From: Spirochaetales bacterium
GTDB lineage: Bacteria; Spirochaetota; Spirochaetia; DSM-27196; SKKC01
DNA length: 38,896 nt
Reading direction: 5' to 3'
Assembly: GCA_007135605.1 (NCBI GenBank)
Contig: SLIN01000123.1
Span: forward strand, 1-38,896
This document shows positions 26,319 through 33,314 of this stretch, one piece after another; within the stretch, counting starts at the first letter, position 1, and each line of letters opens with the position of its first letter. The notes beneath the pieces were generated by a model, which saw nothing but the letters and a program-made list of their open reading frames with translations, was not told where the DNA came from and searched no databases. Both the position numbers and the translations under genes were made by a program.

Positions 26319-27161
26319 TCAGGATGATTTCGTCTGCGTTGACGGTGTTTTTGACTTGGTTTTCGACGACGATTCCCGCCGGTCGTCGGCGTCCATTTTC
26401 TGCTTCCAGACTTCAATGCGTTTCTTTACCGTTTCCGCCTGGTCGCTCTCACCGACCAGCATTTGTATTCGGCGAAGCGCCTGTAGGTACTCGATCGCCA
26501 GTTTGAAGTCGTCGAGCCGGAGCGTCGAAAGCTCGTATCGCTCCCGGTATCGATCGGCGGCCCGTTGCAGCAGCTGTTTCGCCAGATTCAGATGGCCGTA
26601 ACGCTCTTCATAGTAATTGGCGCGCGGGTCGAGCCCGGCGACGAGAGTCTTAAGATTGAGCATGTTCTTCGTCACCGTTGCAAAACGCCCCTCGAGCTCG
26701 ACAAAGCTCCATTTCCACTTCGAGTTCTCGCCGAAGCTCTCCTCCACGCTGTCGATCGTAAAACCGAGCTTACGTATCAGGGCATAACGCTTGTCGACGC
26801 CGTACCGTTCGATTTGTTCCAGCCGATCCTCATACTCACTGAACGGCGCATCGATGAGATCGCTGGTAACCTCTTCGAGATAGATAATGCTCTGATAACA
26901 ACTCTTTCTCGAATCGTTGAGAAACGCCTCGTTCTTCACTCCCAGAAGGGCCAGGGAGATGCGGTTCAACAGTAAGTATCGGGAGGCGAGGTTAAGTCGC
27001 TCCTCGGCGAGATTCAACCGTTTGTACGCGGCGCCTTCAGCCTGCTTGTTCACCGCCTGGAGCACGTTCTTCTCCCAGGCAATCATCTGCTCGACTTCCG
27101 CCTTGTACTCTTTCACACGATCGAAGTATTGCTGTTTCGCCTCAGCCGAGATCTTGCCCAT
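26319..27161 (-). CDS. Helical protein of unknown function
   Basis: The 280-residue protein is almost wholly alpha-helical and highly charged, starting MGKISAEAKQQYFDRVKEY and ending in a Lys/Ser/Thr-rich tail. The middle contains Tyr- and Leu-rich helices such as RLNLASRYLLLNRISLALL, and the C-terminal third looks TPR-like (FKLAIEYLQALRRIQMLVGE). There is no signal peptide or membrane helix. The frame extends upstream to 27413 inside recN, but AGAGGG just before the ATG at 27161 sets the start, overlapping recN by 20 bases. I do not recognise the family. Confidence 0.7.
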   Translation of the reverse strand: MGKISAEAKQQYFDRVKEYKAEVEQMIAWEKNVLQAVNKQAEGAAYKRLNLAEERLNLASRYLLLNRISLALLGVKNEAFLNDSRKSCYQSIIYLEEVTSDLIDAPFSEYEDRLEQIERYGVDKRYALIRKLGFTIDSVEESFGENSKWKWSFVELEGRFATVTKNMLNLKTLVAGLDPRANYYEERYGHLNLAKQLLQRAADRYRERYELSTLRLDDFKLAIEYLQALRRIQMLVGESDQAETVKKRIEVWKQKMDADDRRESSSKTKSKTPSTQTKSS

Positions 27162-28848
27162 TACCCTCTTCCGATTTCCGCAGCATCTCCTCGGCATGTC
27201 GACGCGATACACTAACGGCGGCGTCGCCCGATAGCATACGCGCGATCTCCTCCACGCGATCGTCGTCACGTACCGGAGAAACCTCGGTGCTTGTACGGTC
27301 GCCACGGACACTCTTTTCCACGCGTATGTGATTATCGGCACGAACGGCAATCGTTGCAAGATGGGTGATGCAGAGTATCTGCTTGAATCGGCTGAGCGAA
27401 TAGAGGTACTCACCGACCTGCACCGCCACTTCGCCTCCGATTCCGGCGTCGATTTCGTCGAAAATCAACGTCGGCACATGATCGCTTTCGGCGAATGCGC
27501 TCTTGAGCGCAAGCATGACCCTAGAAATCTCACCTCCGGAGGCGATCGACCTCAACGGTTTCAGCGGCTCCCCGGGATTCGCGGCTAATCGAAATCGAAT
27601 CTGGTCGATACCGTGTGGTCCGCAGGCCGGCTGTCCGTCACTGTTTGATCGTCGCTCGACGGAGACGGAAAACCGGGTTTTCGGCATACCGAGTTTCTGT
27701 ACGCTTGCGACGATTGTCTTCTCCAAGTGCGCTGCCGCCTTTTTTCGTTTCTCAGAGATAGTGCGGGCTTCGGCGAGAATCTCGGATTGCCCCGTTTCGA
27801 TCTGCGCCGCGAGCGTTTCCTTGTCGTGTTCGTAGTTCTCGAGGTCCGCGAGTTCTTGTTCGGCCTCGTCGCAATACTGCAGCACTTCAGAAAGTGTGTT
27901 TCCGTACTTCTTCTCCAGCTTCCGGATAAGGGCGAGTCTCTCCTCCACCTCCTCGAGTCGTTCCGGAGAGAAACTCATCCTCTGCCGATAGTCGCCGATT
28001 GTCTCTGTTATGTCTTCCACCTCATAGAACGCATCGGCAAGGCGCGTCGACAGCCCCGAAAGCTCCTCGTCGATCGCGGTTACCTGGTCGACGAGCGTTC
28101 GTGCATGACGGAGCTCGGTAAGCGCACCTCGCTGGTTTTCACTCAGCGAAGCGTAAAGCTCCTCAATCAGCCCGTAGAGCTTCTCGTGTTGAGAGAGTAT
28201 CGTCCGCTCCTTCTCCAACTCCTCCTCTTCCCCGGGGGTCAGATGTGCGGCGCGAATCTCATCTACCGAAAAGCGGAGTAAATCGGCCTGACGCAGCCGT
28301 TCCCGTTCGCTCGTGAGAAGTTTCTCGTACCGCCGGCGGAGTGCCGCTATTTCCGAGAAATGCCGTGCGAACCCGGTAACCTCATCCTCGATTCCGGCAA
28401 ACTGATCGAGAAACCGTCTGTGGTTCTCTTCGACCATAAGCGACTGATGAGCATGCTGACCGTGAATATCGAAGAGCATCGTACCGAACTCCTCGAGATC
28501 CGATCGGGTAACCGGTGAGCTCTGGAGGTAGATCGGACTCCGGCCCTGGGTCTTCACCGTACGACGAACGACGACGCTACCGTCTTCATCCGCAATGCCA
28601 CGACCTTCCAGCCACTCGCGTGCAGGTTGATTCGAAGAGATATCGAATACTCCGCTCACTACCGCTTCTTCAGTTCCGGTACGGATCGAGCTCGTATCCG
28701 CTTTCACTCCCCTCAGTAATCCGAGCGCACCAACGAGAATCGACTTCCCTGCTCCGGTCTCGCCGCTGAGCACATTCATTCCGCGAGAAAAGCGAATGGT
28801 AAGTCGATCGATCAGTGCGTAATTCTGAATCGTCAGCTCTTCAAGCAC
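27142..28848 (-). CDS. recN: DNA repair protein RecN
   Basis: RecN is an SMC-like ATPase that helps tether and process DNA at double-strand breaks. Walker A GETGAGKS is at about residues 29-36. Two long coiled-coil arms follow, around a hinge-like middle. The ABC signature ASGGEISRVMLALK and Walker B LIFDEIDAGIGGEVAVQVG lie near the C-terminus. The frame runs up to 29100, but RecN proteins begin MLEELxIxNxALI. This matches the GTG at 28848 (LEELTIQNYALIDRL), which has GGAAGG upstream and overlaps the nadK stop by eight bases. That gives 568 residues, the normal size. Confidence 0.96.
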   Translation of the reverse strand: MLEELTIQNYALIDRLTIRFSRGMNVLSGETGAGKSILVGALGLLRGVKADTSSIRTGTEEAVVSGVFDISSNQPAREWLEGRGIADEDGSVVVRRTVKTQGRSPIYLQSSPVTRSDLEEFGTMLFDIHGQHAHQSLMVEENHRRFLDQFAGIEDEVTGFARHFSEIAALRRRYEKLLTSERERLRQADLLRFSVDEIRAAHLTPGEEEELEKERTILSQHEKLYGLIEELYASLSENQRGALTELRHARTLVDQVTAIDEELSGLSTRLADAFYEVEDITETIGDYRQRMSFSPERLEEVEERLALIRKLEKKYGNTLSEVLQYCDEAEQELADLENYEHDKETLAAQIETGQSEILAEARTISEKRKKAAAHLEKTIVASVQKLGMPKTRFSVSVERRSNSDGQPACGPHGIDQIRFRLAANPGEPLKPLRSIASGGEISRVMLALKSAFAESDHVPTLIFDEIDAGIGGEVAVQVGEYLYSLSRFKQILCITHLATIAVRADNHIRVEKSVRGDRTSTEVSPVRDDDRVEEIARMLSGDAAVSVSRRHAEEMLRKSEEGNGQDLG

Positions 28849-29815
28849 CGCCCGACCTTCCCGGGGAAACACCTGGATTCTCTGTTTCGGCGGAAGTAAC
28901 CGGTGTTCCGTGTTCCGATTCTCCGTTTTCTTCGCCACCCGCCCATCCGAGCTTACGTCGAAGCACCTCGTAGAACGACCGCTCGCCCGAGCGTACGATC
29001 GCCGCGCTCCAATCGCAACGGCGTACGGTAACAAGGTCATCGGGACGGATGTGGAAAACGGTCTGACCGTCGACAGTGAGAATGAGATCTTCCCGCTCAT
29101 ATTCGTTCACAAGTATCCTCAACTCCTCACTACCGGGGAAAACGAGCGGACGATTGCTCAATGTGAACGGACATATCGGATTCATGAGCATTGCGTCGAG
29201 CTCAGGGTGTAGAATCGGCCCTCCGGCCGCAACCGAATAGCCGGTGGATCCGGTCGGTGTGGAGATAATGAGTCCGTCGGCCCGATAGCGCGCTACGATA
29301 TCGGTGCTGTTCCGCACCGTCAGGTGGATGATTCTGACGGATTTCGAGGTACCACCCGAGGAGATAACCATGTCGTTCAGAGCGGTAAACTCACCTATTC
29401 GCTGTTCCGAGCGTTCGACCGTTACCGACAACAGCATCCGATTGCTGGTCGACAACGCCCCGTCGCACCACGACCGGAGCGCCGTTTTCCACTGATCGGG
29501 GGAAACCTCGGTAATAAACCCGAATCGACCGAGGTTGATCGGTAGAATCGGAACGCCGGCGGGAGCGAGTAAACGGGCACAGAAGAGGACCGTCCCGTCG
29601 CCCCCGAGGCAGATGGCAAGGTCGAACTCTTCAACAGGGAGTTTCGATGCTTGCCCCTGAAAGGCAAACACGGTGACGGATACACCGGATTCTTCCAGGA
29701 ACGATCGTATCTCATCGCACAGCGGGCCGGCGACTTTCTTGTCGAGATTTGCGACAAGGAGTACCCGCCGCAGCGAATGTGTGTTGGCCGGAGCGCCGAC
29801 AGTACCAGTAGCCAT
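28841..29815 (-). CDS. nadK: NAD kinase
   Basis: NadK phosphorylates NAD to NADP in the cytoplasm. The GGDGT motif (residues 71-75), INLGRFGFITEV, ALNDMVISSGG and the conserved glycine-rich ADGLIISTPTGSTGYSVAAGGPILHP stretch are all present. After the catalytic domain, about 35 extra residues rich in Gly, Glu and Ser form a probably disordered tail. The frame opens at 29911, but MATGTV at 29815 follows a consensus-like promoter only seven or so bases away, so translation is probably near-leaderless. No Shine-Dalgarno is evident. It overlaps recN by eight bases. Confidence 0.95.
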   Translation of the reverse strand: MATGTVGAPANTHSLRRVLLVANLDKKVAGPLCDEIRSFLEESGVSVTVFAFQGQASKLPVEEFDLAICLGGDGTVLFCARLLAPAGVPILPINLGRFGFITEVSPDQWKTALRSWCDGALSTSNRMLLSVTVERSEQRIGEFTALNDMVISSGGTSKSVRIIHLTVRNSTDIVARYRADGLIISTPTGSTGYSVAAGGPILHPELDAMLMNPICPFTLSNRPLVFPGSEELRILVNEYEREDLILTVDGQTVFHIRPDDLVTVRRCDWSAAIVRSGERSFYEVLRRKLGWAGGEENGESEHGTPVTSAETENPGVSPGRSGGA

Positions 29816-29828
29816 TATACGATGGACC

Positions 29829-29857
29829 ACTATAGCTTCCGCGTATCTCCATGTAAA
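29829..29857 (-). promoter_or_regulatory. Promoter of the nadK-recN gene group
   Basis: Minus strand: -35 TTTACA (29857-29852), a 17-base spacer and -10 TATAGT (29834-29829), each five of six to consensus. The expected start point (about 29822) is roughly seven bases from the nadK ATG, too close for a normal ribosome binding site. Confidence 0.7.
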
Positions 29858-29861
29858 CGGG

Positions 29862-30902
29862 TCAATACAAGCGCAATCCGGACCCTTCCGCGGATTCCCG
29901 GTACTCAGCATACCGGATTACCTCGGGGCGATACTCGAAATGGATCGGATCAAAACCGACCCATTTCCCGCCCCACACGAAATCGTGCCGTTCGAATGCA
30001 TCGACTATCGGCTGCGGAACGGTGAATCGCAGACGCAACGGGAGCGACCACCACTCCACAATCCCGGACTGTTGCGCCCATCTCCAGTATCCGAAACCGC
30101 CGCGCCAGTTTCTCGGCAACAGATCGACCGCAGCTCCATACGAGTGGAAGCTCCGGGAGGCGGAGCCGAATATGTCGCGCCAGAAGAAGCCGCTGACTTG
30201 TCGAATATTCCGTACGAACGCAGCGACGCTCTCATCGTCAGAGGCCGCCTCGTAGATGTCGGCTTCAACCCTTCGCAGCGGTTCGATCAGCATCGGGTGT
30301 ACTCGCGTTCCATAACCGAGAAAGGTCGTTCGCTCCATAGCGCGATCTGCTTCCTGCAGTGACGTTACGTCGTACAACGCCTCGTAAAACGCCTGATGCC
30401 GTCCTCGCTCGATCCAGACGTCATCGCCGGGACCGTCACCGGCGTAGCGCATGCGCATCATCTCAACGAACTCTTCATCGTAGTCGGGGACCTCGTGCTC
30501 CCCGAGGCGGTAATCGTAGAACCGAATCGACGAATACTCCTCGGTTCCAACCCGTTCCTCTTCGGGAAGCAATCGACCATCGGACCACACGAACCACTGC
30601 TCGCCGATTCTGAGCGACCACTCTCCATTCCGTACCGCTCTCTCCGAGATTCGACCGGCATACGCCTCGTAGAGCCAGCCGGTGGCAAGCGCACCGACCG
30701 TCCGCGAATCGATCTCGGTCGGATCCATCGGCCGCGAGTGGTCGAATGTGGGAATGGATTTCTCGTCCTCTTTGTTGGAGTTGGCCAGTGCCGGGACGGT
30801 TTCGCTGGGGTAACCGACGCCGTGAGCGGCCGTACGAATCATCGCCAGCGCAGCGATAAATGTGAGAAAAGCGGCCACGGCAAGGTTAGCACGTTGAGGC
30901 AT
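29862..30902 (-). CDS. M15-type D,D-peptidase-like exported protein
   Basis: A signal-like N-terminus (LAVAAFLTFIAALAMIRTAAHG) is followed by a mature part of about 320 residues. Near the C-terminus are SFHSYGAAVDLLP and DPIHFEYRP, the paired His/Asp and His motifs of M15 zinc peptidases (D-alanyl-D-alanine carboxypeptidase or LD-carboxypeptidase-like). It probably trims cell-wall peptides outside the cytoplasmic membrane. The upstream half is a family-specific region. The frame starts at a TTG (30905), but the ATG at 30902 has GGGAG six bases upstream. It follows the DegT-like gene by about 40 bases and ends just before the nadK promoter. Confidence 0.78.
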   Translation of the reverse strand: MPQRANLAVAAFLTFIAALAMIRTAAHGVGYPSETVPALANSNKEDEKSIPTFDHSRPMDPTEIDSRTVGALATGWLYEAYAGRISERAVRNGEWSLRIGEQWFVWSDGRLLPEEERVGTEEYSSIRFYDYRLGEHEVPDYDEEFVEMMRMRYAGDGPGDDVWIERGRHQAFYEALYDVTSLQEADRAMERTTFLGYGTRVHPMLIEPLRRVEADIYEAASDDESVAAFVRNIRQVSGFFWRDIFGSASRSFHSYGAAVDLLPRNWRGGFGYWRWAQQSGIVEWWSLPLRLRFTVPQPIVDAFERHDFVWGGKWVGFDPIHFEYRPEVIRYAEYRESAEGSGLRLY

Positions 30903-30941
30903 CAACTACTCCCGAACTCGATAGCGACAACATCAACCGCG

Positions 30942-31976
30942 CTACGGAAGTGTCGACAGCACACGCGAGATTCGCTCGACATCGCCTTTCGTCAAGGTCG
31001 GATACAGCGGAAAGAGAACGCAGCGCAGCAGTAGCGCCGAAGCGTTGGGAAACGCTTCGGCGGTGCAGGCACCCCATGAATCGGCAATCGCCATGACAGA
31101 CTCCGCGAACGCCCATACGACTTCTACATCCTTCTTTCGCGCATAGCCGATAACATCCTTTGCCGCCCCATCGAGCAGTACCGGAAATGCAAAAGGCACG
31201 CTCGACTCCGATCCGGCGAGACTCCGATGCCGGCCTCGCATCGCCGAGCGACGGAAGAGGTCGGCCACTTCACGCCGACGGGCAATGTAGCTTTCGAGCG
31301 ACCGCATCTGCGCGAGGCCGAGCGCCGCGTTCATGTCCGGCAGCAGCGCAGTCGGCCTCAACGATTCGACCGCCTTTTTCAGGGCCGAACGTTCGGCCCG
31401 TCCACGCGCAACGAGCGCCGCCCCACCGCCGGTCGTAAAAACGGCCTCCGGTTCCAGGCTGAGAATCGTGTAGCGCCCGATCGTACCGATGGTGGGCGAA
31501 TCCTCCCCCGCCCCCAATCCGTGGGAGGCATCTTCCACGATCGGAATGTCCAGCTGCTTGAATCGAACGAGCGAATCGGCAGCTCCGAGCGGACAGTCGA
31601 GCAGTACCGCCTTGGGAGATGCATCGCCGACTATTCGCTCTGCCATGTCGATATCCAGCATTCCGGTCGATTGATCCACCTCGCAGAATACCGGCTCGAT
31701 TTTCCTCGCACGAAGGACGTCCGCGTACACCGCAGGCGCCAACGGGGAAATCAGCAGCTTGTCTCCGGAACCGAGACCGAGTGAATCGAATGCCAATGTG
31801 ATGGCACGCTCGTACTCACGAACCGCGATCGCCGATGCGCCGTCCAAGCGCCGAGCGAGCTCGGAGGTGAACTCATCGAGGCGTACGCCGGGACCGAGCT
31901 GATCGCTGACCATGCAGGTGAGTACCGAATTCATGTCTTTTCGGCGGATGGAAGGCCTGGTGACTGATATTGCCAT
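30942..31976 (-). CDS. DegT/DnrJ-fold protein lacking the PLP lysine
   Basis: The 344-residue protein has the fold-type I pattern of DegT/DnrJ/EryC1/StrS sugar aminotransferases. An N-terminal substrate region is followed by the large-domain IVEDASHGLGA motif (Asp149 would contact the PLP pyridine) and the ILSLEPEAVFTTGGGAALVA segment. In active members this segment reads S-F-H-P-x-K-x-x-T-T-G-E-G-G; here the lysine position is Ala178 (codon GCC) and the Glu is Gly. No nearby Lys replaces it. The C-terminal small domain is shortened in comparison with active enzymes. It is probably not a classical aminotransferase; whether it still binds PLP is unknown. It begins seven bases after cheW. Confidence 0.75.
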   Translation of the reverse strand: MAISVTRPSIRRKDMNSVLTCMVSDQLGPGVRLDEFTSELARRLDGASAIAVREYERAITLAFDSLGLGSGDKLLISPLAPAVYADVLRARKIEPVFCEVDQSTGMLDIDMAERIVGDASPKAVLLDCPLGAADSLVRFKQLDIPIVEDASHGLGAGEDSPTIGTIGRYTILSLEPEAVFTTGGGAALVARGRAERSALKKAVESLRPTALLPDMNAALGLAQMRSLESYIARRREVADLFRRSAMRGRHRSLAGSESSVPFAFPVLLDGAAKDVIGYARKKDVEVVWAFAESVMAIADSWGACTAEAFPNASALLLRCVLFPLYPTLTKGDVERISRVLSTLP

Positions 31977-31982
31977 TCTCGA

Positions 31983-32453
31983 CTACACGTTCATGCGACC
32001 GATGGCTTCAAGCTCTCGCACGTTGAAAAGCCTCCGGGTATTGAGAATGATGAGGTAGTGATCATCACGGTGAACAACGCCTTCGATATACTCCGCTCCG
32101 ATACCCGAAATCATCTCCGGCGGTCTCTGGATCGCACTCCGATCCACGGTTACGACACGTTCCACCTTGTCGATCATGACCGCGAGCAACATGTCATCGA
32201 GCCGGATAATGACGAATCCGCTCAACAACTCATCGCCTTCTTCCAACTGTGCCTTCTGGATGTGGAATCGCCGGTGCAGATTAATCACCGGTATAATATC
32301 ACCGCGAAGATTGAAAATGCCTTCGACGTATACCGGAGCATTCGGCACCGGCCGTACGTCTTCGACTTTCACGATGCCCTCTACTTCCATAATATCTATA
32401 CCGTACTGCTCGGCGCCGAGCTGAAACGTGACGAGCTGCAGCTGATCGGCCAT
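31983..32453 (-). CDS. cheW: Chemotaxis coupling protein CheW
   Basis: CheW couples chemoreceptors to the CheA kinase in the membrane array. The 156-residue protein is one CheW domain: QLVTFQLGAEQYGIDIMEVEGI, VPNAPVYVEGIFNLRGDIIPVINL and the C-terminal YIEGVVHRDDHYLIILN. The frame extends to 32522, but GGAGGAAGC directly before the ATG at 32453 (MADQLQLV) fixes the start. Spirochaetes usually encode several CheW proteins; this one is not next to cheA. It stands between the 261-residue unknown and the DegT-like protein. Confidence 0.95.
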   Translation of the reverse strand: MADQLQLVTFQLGAEQYGIDIMEVEGIVKVEDVRPVPNAPVYVEGIFNLRGDIIPVINLHRRFHIQKAQLEEGDELLSGFVIIRLDDMLLAVMIDKVERVVTVDRSAIQRPPEMISGIGAEYIEGVVHRDDHYLIILNTRRLFNVRELEAIGRMNV

Positions 32454-32528
32454 GCTTCCTCCGTACCTCGGCATACTAAATGCCCGGCCATCCCCGCGCA
32501 AGCCCGGAGGGCGCCGGAACATACCGGT

Positions 32529-33314
32529 CTACATCGATCGCCAGAACTTGAAGTGGCGCTTCTCGATCTCGGTGAGTGGCGGCATCGGGAAGAACCGGCT
32601 CTCGCTCTGCGAAGCGAACATGAACCCGTGACGGATAAGCTTATACGAGATCTCGTCGAGCGAGCTGTCGACACAGAGACCTTTCGTGTGCTTATCCGGA
32701 TATCGCCGCACCTCGTTAAATGCATCGCGCAGGGACGAGGGATGTATGTTTTTCACCGGAGATTCCATGAACGGATTGTGCTCGAACTCTTCGAGAAACT
32801 CGACGATGTTTACGTCGAGCTGGGTGTAGAGTTGCTTTGGAGCGCTCTTGTAGTTCTCCGGGTTGGTAATATACGCCCCGAAATCGCGAAAATCGTAATC
32901 CGAGAGCACGAGCATTCCCATCGGCGCGATTTCCGCATAGATCCGCACGAACCCCTCCTCGTACGGATTCTCGTACTCTCCGGGTTCGAGCCCGAAGCAG
33001 TGACCTTCCTGAGTAGCAAGGTACAGCATGCGGATCGCGGAGATATCGATATGCTCGAGCACCCGGTAGGTCGCGATGAATTTCGTCGCTTTCGGGCGGC
33101 CGTCTTCGTGGGGTCTTAGGTTGGCAAATACCTCCTCAATACGGAAATACGGGTTACGAAACGAATTATCTATCTCGGCAAAAATCACCTTCCCGGGGTA
33201 GTGCTGTGACGAGCCGGAGGTGTAATGTTTGGCAAACTGCTCGGGTGTCAACTGAGAGGCAACCAGCGCATCGTTCGGATGGAAGATGGCGTAGAGTCGA
33301 TTCGTGAGTTCCAT
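32529..33314 (-). CDS. Conserved-looking protein of unknown function
   Basis: This 261-residue protein has no signal peptide or membrane helix and is rich in Phe, Tyr and His. It begins [20 protein letters not shown], has a middle with [21 protein letters not shown] and ends [21 protein letters not shown]. The composition looks like a folded cytoplasmic enzyme or sensor rather than a scaffold, but no known motif is seen. Its ATG directly follows the hppA TGA (TGAATG), so it is translationally coupled to the pyrophosphatase, and cheW follows after 75 bases. Confidence 0.75.

Follow-up and report, generated by a model that had tools for sequence, protein, structure and literature searches.

Directly behind cheW in a Spirochaetales bacterium lies a gene of the DegT family that encodes alanine at the position of the Schiff-base lysine, which raises the question of what its product, here termed DegT*, may be: an unusual enzyme, a sensor of the chemotaxis system, a subunit of a larger enzyme, a gene in decay or a former enzyme put to another use. 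We analyzed the stretch of 38,896 nucleotides that holds the gene (the window) together with related genomes from the same class and from other classes of Spirochaetota.

The gene, its neighbours and its fold

The features surrounding the DegT* gene are collected in Table 1. As the initial annotation had it, the gene is intact, running from ATG to stop, and closely spaced behind cheW, its start being separated from the cheW stop (31983) by 6 nt. The frame contains ILSLEPEAVFTTGGGAAL and VEDASHG, and the motif of DegT* at the lysine site reads SLEPEAVFTTGGG. As judged by eye, cheW probably starts near 32453 (MADQLQLV). The recN gene probably has a shorter start than the frame listed, and the 261-aa frame on the upstream side of cheW matched nothing in Pfam or NCBIfam.

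Table 1. Coordinates of DegT* and neighbouring features in the window
Feature	Coordinates	Strand	Remarks
DegT*, probable pseudo-aminotransferase, 344 aa	30942..31976	(-)	Ala178 at PLP-lysine column, Asp149 kept, SGT-loop Thr lost, Arg12 and Arg53 as family features
Codon 178, GCC (Ala), Schiff-base lysine column	31443..31445	(-)	sequence reading; register from alignments to ArnB, own-genome paralogue and canonical paralogues
cheW ORF	31983..32522	(-)	upstream neighbour; PF01584, 110.2 bits; present in 94/115 fetched loci
nadK (NAD kinase)	28841..29911	(-)	downstream neighbour; PF20143, PF01513; present in 110/115 fetched loci
recN ORF	27142..29100	(-)	PF02463; overlaps nadK; present in 102/115 fetched loci
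M15-type peptidase ORF	29862..30905	(-)	between DegT* and nadK; 3/115 loci, all of the window genus
261-aa ORF	32529-33314	(-)	upstream of cheW; found in 3/115 loci

For the three pairs formed by the window gene and two congeners, dN/dS (Nei-Gojobori) was 0.111, 0.078 and 0.070. At 92-96% protein identity, values of 0.07-0.11 argue that the gene is maintained rather than decaying, in agreement with the initial annotation.

Pfam model PF01041 (DegT_DnrJ_EryC1) matched residues 9-338 with 107.8 bits (cut-off 19.8), and none of the six listed NCBIfam equivalog families (PseC, ArnB, WecE and others) reached its cut-off, the best being PseC with 105.7 bits against 423.5. An AlphaFold2 model of the single chain, built from 76 sequences (pLDDT 94.8, pTM 0.92), superposed on ArnB (1mdo) with a TM score of 0.90, Z of 39.5 and an rmsd of 2.3 Å over 338 residues. 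Across 50 listed entries, the comparison of this predicted model gave Z values of 37.3-40.6, pointing to PLP fold type I as in DegT chains, and the nearest solved structures were DegT sugar aminotransferases. The Pfam match, the model and its likeness to ArnB all support the predicted DegT fold. DegT family proteins dimerise, and we assume from its family that DegT* does so as well.

Distribution of DegT* in the class and the phylum

Of 148 related genomes searched at the protein level, 133 had some match, and a DegT* orthologue was counted in 118, made up of 115 fetched loci (from 115 genomes) and three partial, unfetched hits (G015, G032, G038). The other 30 genomes had no match or one at paralogue level only, and 14 of them are less than 90% complete. 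DegT* is present even in a genome of 1.1 Mb (G119).

A profile search of the phylum passed 1e-30 in 323 of 390 genomes and gave no match in 67 (20 of the 67 being listed); five of the 323 best hits fell between 1e-30 and 1e-40, a range that canonical DegT proteins reach too (1.4e-40 at best among those seen), which leaves 318. Of the relatives that this search turned up in other classes we read 41, in most cases one or two for each family. E-values are at most 4.4e-50 for 39 of them; the remaining two, L272 (2.6e-33) and L273 (5.3e-31), were assigned to the DegT* family by an N-terminal motif. When the contigs of genomes were scanned, the best 80 of 489 matches were all spirochaetal by their record titles. 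The named genome set overlaps with the genomes numbered G and is not independent of them.

The lysine column is released from constraint

The alanine that the initial annotation had placed at the lysine position, encoded by GCC, was confirmed by the reading frame and by three alignments, namely BLAST against the Lys-bearing paralogue of the same genome, an ArnB profile alignment and a MAFFT alignment with 10 canonical paralogues, in all of which the PLP lysine falls on column 178. Lysine occupies this column in 10/10 canonical rows of the MAFFT alignment, and a register error was rejected since the three alignments agree. A sequencing error at the codon, which had been named as a possible objection, is unlikely because alanine is also present in the DegT* proteins of both congeners searched, which come from separate genomes and are 96% and 92% identical to the window protein.

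Across the 115 class orthologues, column 178 holds Gly in 31, Asp in 29, His in 16, Ser in 15, Asn in 6, Lys in 6, Ala in 4, Cys in 4, Thr in 2, Met in 1 and Leu in 1. With 11 residues in the column and alanine confined to three rows of the window genus and one other, alanine itself is not conserved, and the emphasis placed on Ala178 as a special variant is not supported; because the column drifts, the lysine has not been replaced by anything particular, which argues that the position has been released. The 41 rows from other classes have Met (11), Ser (8), Asp (5), Glu (4), Lys (4), Arg (4), Gly (2), His (2) and one Asn at this column.

Orthologues with lysine at column 178, regarded in the initial annotation as a point against its reading, do occur, in 6/115 class members (L062, L069, L073, L074, L101 and L102) and in 4/41 other-class rows, but the other PLP contacts are not conserved in the family, and lysine is absent from 109/115 class proteins and 37/41 outside the class. 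In the six class members lysine may have come back by chance or along with a regained function. An alternative conserved lysine serving the same site was likewise sought in the alignment and none was found, K281 being the only window column with lysine in at least 60% of rows (90/115).

Erosion of other PLP contacts and new family residues

Pocket residues of DegT* were mapped by sequence alignment; columns 56, 149, 173 and 178, which we take from ArnB to be PLP contacts, were transferred through the ArnB-profile and paralogue alignments. The phosphate-binding threonine of the SGT loop (Thr56 column) is present in 10/10 canonical paralogues, in 20/41 relatives from other classes and in 6/113 class members, and the window protein has Glu56 at this place. 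Serine at position 173, before the lysine motif, occurs in 10/10 canonical, 25/41 other-class and 47/115 class rows, and is kept in the window protein. Retention of Asp149 (VEDASHG), as initially reported, is borne out throughout, with aspartate in 10/10 canonical, 40/41 other-class and 111/113 class rows.

At column 12, arginine is found in 111/111 class rows, and arginine or lysine in 41/41 rows of the family from other classes, compared with no arginine and one lysine among the 10 canonical paralogues. Arg53 is present in 96/113 class rows, at a place where the enzymes have the Asn, Ser or Thr of the SGT loop.

The structural matches of the model include three Lys-to-Ala mutants of DegT enzymes (4oca, 3nys and 4ztc) whose crystals, by their titles, contain either PLP or an external aldimine, so that alanine alone does not exclude PLP binding. 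The stronger case for PLP loss comes from the missing phosphate-loop threonine combined with the drift of column 178, rather than from the alanine by itself.

Phylogeny of the family

A tree of 73 rows, with the motif columns removed, was drawn from 85 aligned rows, all of which were used for a quick tree. Long or divergent rows (L271, L272, L273, L135, L134, L137, L126) and near-duplicates (L232, L231, L247, L034, L241) were dropped, and the 33 class rows other than the window were hand-picked from the 115. The DegT* family forms one clade (100/100) apart from the 10 canonical DegT rows (100/100), and within it the class forms one clade (100/100), with five rows from two other families as sisters (100/97). 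The family tree is unresolved at its base, where four Lys rows (L251, L254, L266, L267), two Arg rows (L240, L261) and one Ser row (L259) are placed. Support for joining the remaining 56 rows is 83/80, and lysine occurs in three of them, all from the class.

On this tree, the presence or absence of lysine at column 178 requires at least five changes. The pattern is compatible with stepwise loss from an enzyme, but a tree with this base and with 83/80 support for the branch above it does not fix how many times lysine was lost. L240, L241 and L261 have arginine at the PLP-lysine column and still possess an SGT- or NGT-type loop, and these rows possibly represent an intermediate stage of catalytic loss.

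Relation to cheW and the chemotaxis system

Class loci are arranged as cheW-DegT*-nadK-recN along a single strand, as read from 115 fetched stretches of which some stop early at the end of a contig. Outside the class, 4 of 34 fetched loci gave a cheW hit and 5 a nadK hit, and contexts mostly differ, which led us to reject a conserved partner gene there; the Lys-bearing L254 gene adjoins nadK-recN (locus L298) as in class members. Among the loci from other classes, a QueD-like (6-pyruvoyl-tetrahydropterin synthase) gene lies beside DegT* in six (L284, L286, L287, L293, L301, L304) and an RlpA-like gene in eight (L283-L286, L291, L294, L300, L301), both labels deriving from one annotated representative of each.

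The initial annotation had pointed out the adjacency of cheW and had considered a sensory or structural role possible. In its fullest form, this proposal would make DegT* a part of the spirochaetal (F2) chemotaxis array that acts through the adjacent CheW, either as a scaffold or by sensing a metabolite. The analogy is with CheWS, in which a spirochaetal CheW is joined to a CheR-like domain that, according to PMC10653840, senses SAM. PMC7666581, which also gives the background of the F2 system, states that this domain has lost two methyltransferase residues, so that there is a precedent for a former enzyme serving as array sensor. Apart from this precedent, the proposal draws on the place of cheW, immediately upstream and in the same orientation, in 94/115 class loci and in 4/34 loci fetched from other classes.

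A search for CheW domains found none in 21 of the 148 genomes (20 listed, the other being G146 by elimination). Genomes were taken as good if, by rounded values, completeness was 90% or more and contamination 5% or less. Among the 95 good genomes, DegT* occurs in 69/80 with CheW versus 10/15 without (Fisher p 0.12, a test that ignores kinship). DegT* is thus not restricted to genomes with chemotaxis genes; eight of the 10 CheW-less genomes that keep it also have no FliG match, and seven of the 10 belong to one family, so that the 10 are not independent cases. All seven f16 genomes and G062 keep DegT* with neither a CheW-domain nor a FliG match, and the good, CheW-less genomes G054 and G112 have DegT* together with FliG. 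G026 and G060, which have FliG, are less than 90% complete and may simply miss cheW.

Conversely, families f27 (7/7 genomes) and f14 (2/2) have CheW domains without DegT*. In eight genomes without DegT* we sought nadK and found it in seven. Four of these loci show the order cheW-nadK-recN (L313, L314 and L315 from f27, L316 from f14), and the two lineages appear to have lost DegT* from this slot. In L312 (f14), cheW-nadK is present and the stretch covered gave no hit for recN, and L311 and L317 have nadK-recN with no cheW hit, the L311 match starting at a contig end in a genome without CheW domain. The NAD kinase match of G051 (L316, G051:C1:119166-120113) spans two TAG codons.

Taken together, this distribution speaks against chemotaxis as the general role of DegT*, and a sensory function is not supported by adjacency to a gene without which DegT* is kept and beside which it may be missing. 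The link to cheW is inherited gene order rather than a shown function, and a role of DegT* in the chemotaxis array is unlikely; in a broader sense, sensory or structural roles are possible.

Catalysis without lysine, partner subunit or pseudogene

An active enzyme that dispenses with the lysine and uses PMP, like the His-type 3-dehydratases ColD and E1, would be consistent with the retained fold and Asp149, with the presence of ColD and E1 among the structural matches of the model and with histidine at column 178 in 16/115 class members. These dehydratases are recognised by histidine at the lysine column, where the window protein has alanine, and histidine is not conserved in a column that takes 11 residues, nor are the phosphate-binding threonine and serine conserved, which leaves this explanation quite improbable.

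DegT active sites are completed by a second subunit, which would suit DegT* as the partner without catalytic activity in a DegT heteromer, analogous to LCB1 in serine palmitoyltransferase. PMC3794620 describes LCB1 as a Lys-less PLP-fold protein and reports that hLCB1 without the PLP lysine still forms the heterodimer. We looked for a canonical partner with PF01041 in 44 chosen genomes. In G062, G072, G078, G111 and G133 (93-99% complete), DegT* itself is the best hit and a canonical-range DegT hit is absent, the next hits reaching at most 47 bits in a listing by E-value that was truncated among weak hits only, with G111:C20, a 386-aa frame, at 47.2 bits. Because these five genomes have DegT* and no canonical DegT, an obligate partner-subunit role is unlikely there, and we regard the subunit reading as a whole as very unlikely.

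The loss of several active-site residues might suggest a sugar aminotransferase gene in decay, but this pseudogene reading is almost certainly wrong, being already contradicted by the low dN/dS, the new invariant residues, the lack of internal stops among the orthologues listed and the presence of the gene in 118/148 genomes.

A probable, maintained pseudoenzyme of the DegT/ArnB fold

We consider it probable that DegT* is a maintained pseudoenzyme of the DegT/ArnB fold, derived from a sugar aminotransferase. Its PLP chemistry would have disappeared at an early point in the history of Spirochaetota, and the present protein would be a binding protein that does without PLP, probably forms a dimer and acts as regulator or scaffold. 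The retention of the predicted fold, the loss of lysine in most members, the eroded PLP contacts, purifying selection, orthology within the class by synteny and the basal Lys- and Arg-bearing relatives all point in this direction; lysine in 6/115 class members and Ser173 in the window protein are counterpoints to PLP loss. DegT* thus has the look of an ancient enzyme since put to another use, and not of an isolated variant tied to cheW.

Such a protein would form no covalent PLP adduct and perform no transamination. More conjecturally, the emptied pocket (Asp149, Arg53) together with the family-specific Arg12 may serve to bind another protein or a negatively charged ligand, an anionic ligand being suggested because Arg12 and Arg53 would suit one. 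Since DegT* persists in genomes that gave no match for chemotaxis or flagellar genes, its function, as judged from gene distribution, is apparently housekeeping-like rather than chemotactic. A tentative extension, which we regard as possible though doubtful in its entirety, is that of a Spirochaetota-wide regulator in which PLP chemistry was lost in steps, first by exchange of the lysine for arginine or another residue and afterwards in the phosphate loop, while Arg12, Arg53 and Asp149 came to frame the pocket for another anionic ligand, and a housekeeping role was kept even in the 1.1-Mb genome and without flagellar or chemotaxis genes.

These findings bear on annotation, as DegT* proteins match the DegT model and invite the label of sugar aminotransferase; pathway inference from the Lys-less members would be wrong, because 109/115 class and 37/41 other-class proteins are without the catalytic lysine. 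Moreover, the graded series of lysine kept, arginine and free drift allows the birth of a pseudoenzyme to be traced across a phylum.

Comparison with known systems

Pseudoenzymes and Lys-less PLP folds are already known, and the DegT* protein itself is apparently unstudied. A literature search of titles and abstracts, with most subscription papers outside its scope, yielded among the matches listed no paper describing a DegT* protein, and none was found under TP0439/TP0440, which we take to be the locus tags. A survey of PLP proteins in B. subtilis gave nothing on the DegT* family (PMC6522883).

With ArnB, GDP-perosamine synthase and PseC (PF01041), DegT* has the whole fold in common (Z 39-40, 337-340 residues aligned) as well as the PLP-contacting aspartate and the LPDxNAA...Q motif of ArnB, at 14-24% identity to the structures listed. 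Unlike these enzymes, DegT* has no Schiff-base lysine and no conserved phosphate-binding threonine or serine, and possesses an invariant Arg12. ColD and E1 have the same fold and also lack lysine at the same site; they have histidine there, as the mutant names ColD H188 and E1 H220 indicate, whereas the site in DegT* is not fixed. LCB1/SPTLC1 is, like DegT*, a PLP-fold protein without catalytic lysine that is kept by selection, but it works together with the catalytic LCB2, whereas DegT* occurs in five genomes without a canonical DegT enzyme. CheWS of Treponema denticola (CheW-CheR-like) is likewise a spirochaetal former enzyme associated with chemotaxis genes; it is fused to CheW and senses SAM, whereas DegT* is free-standing and kept without chemotaxis genes.
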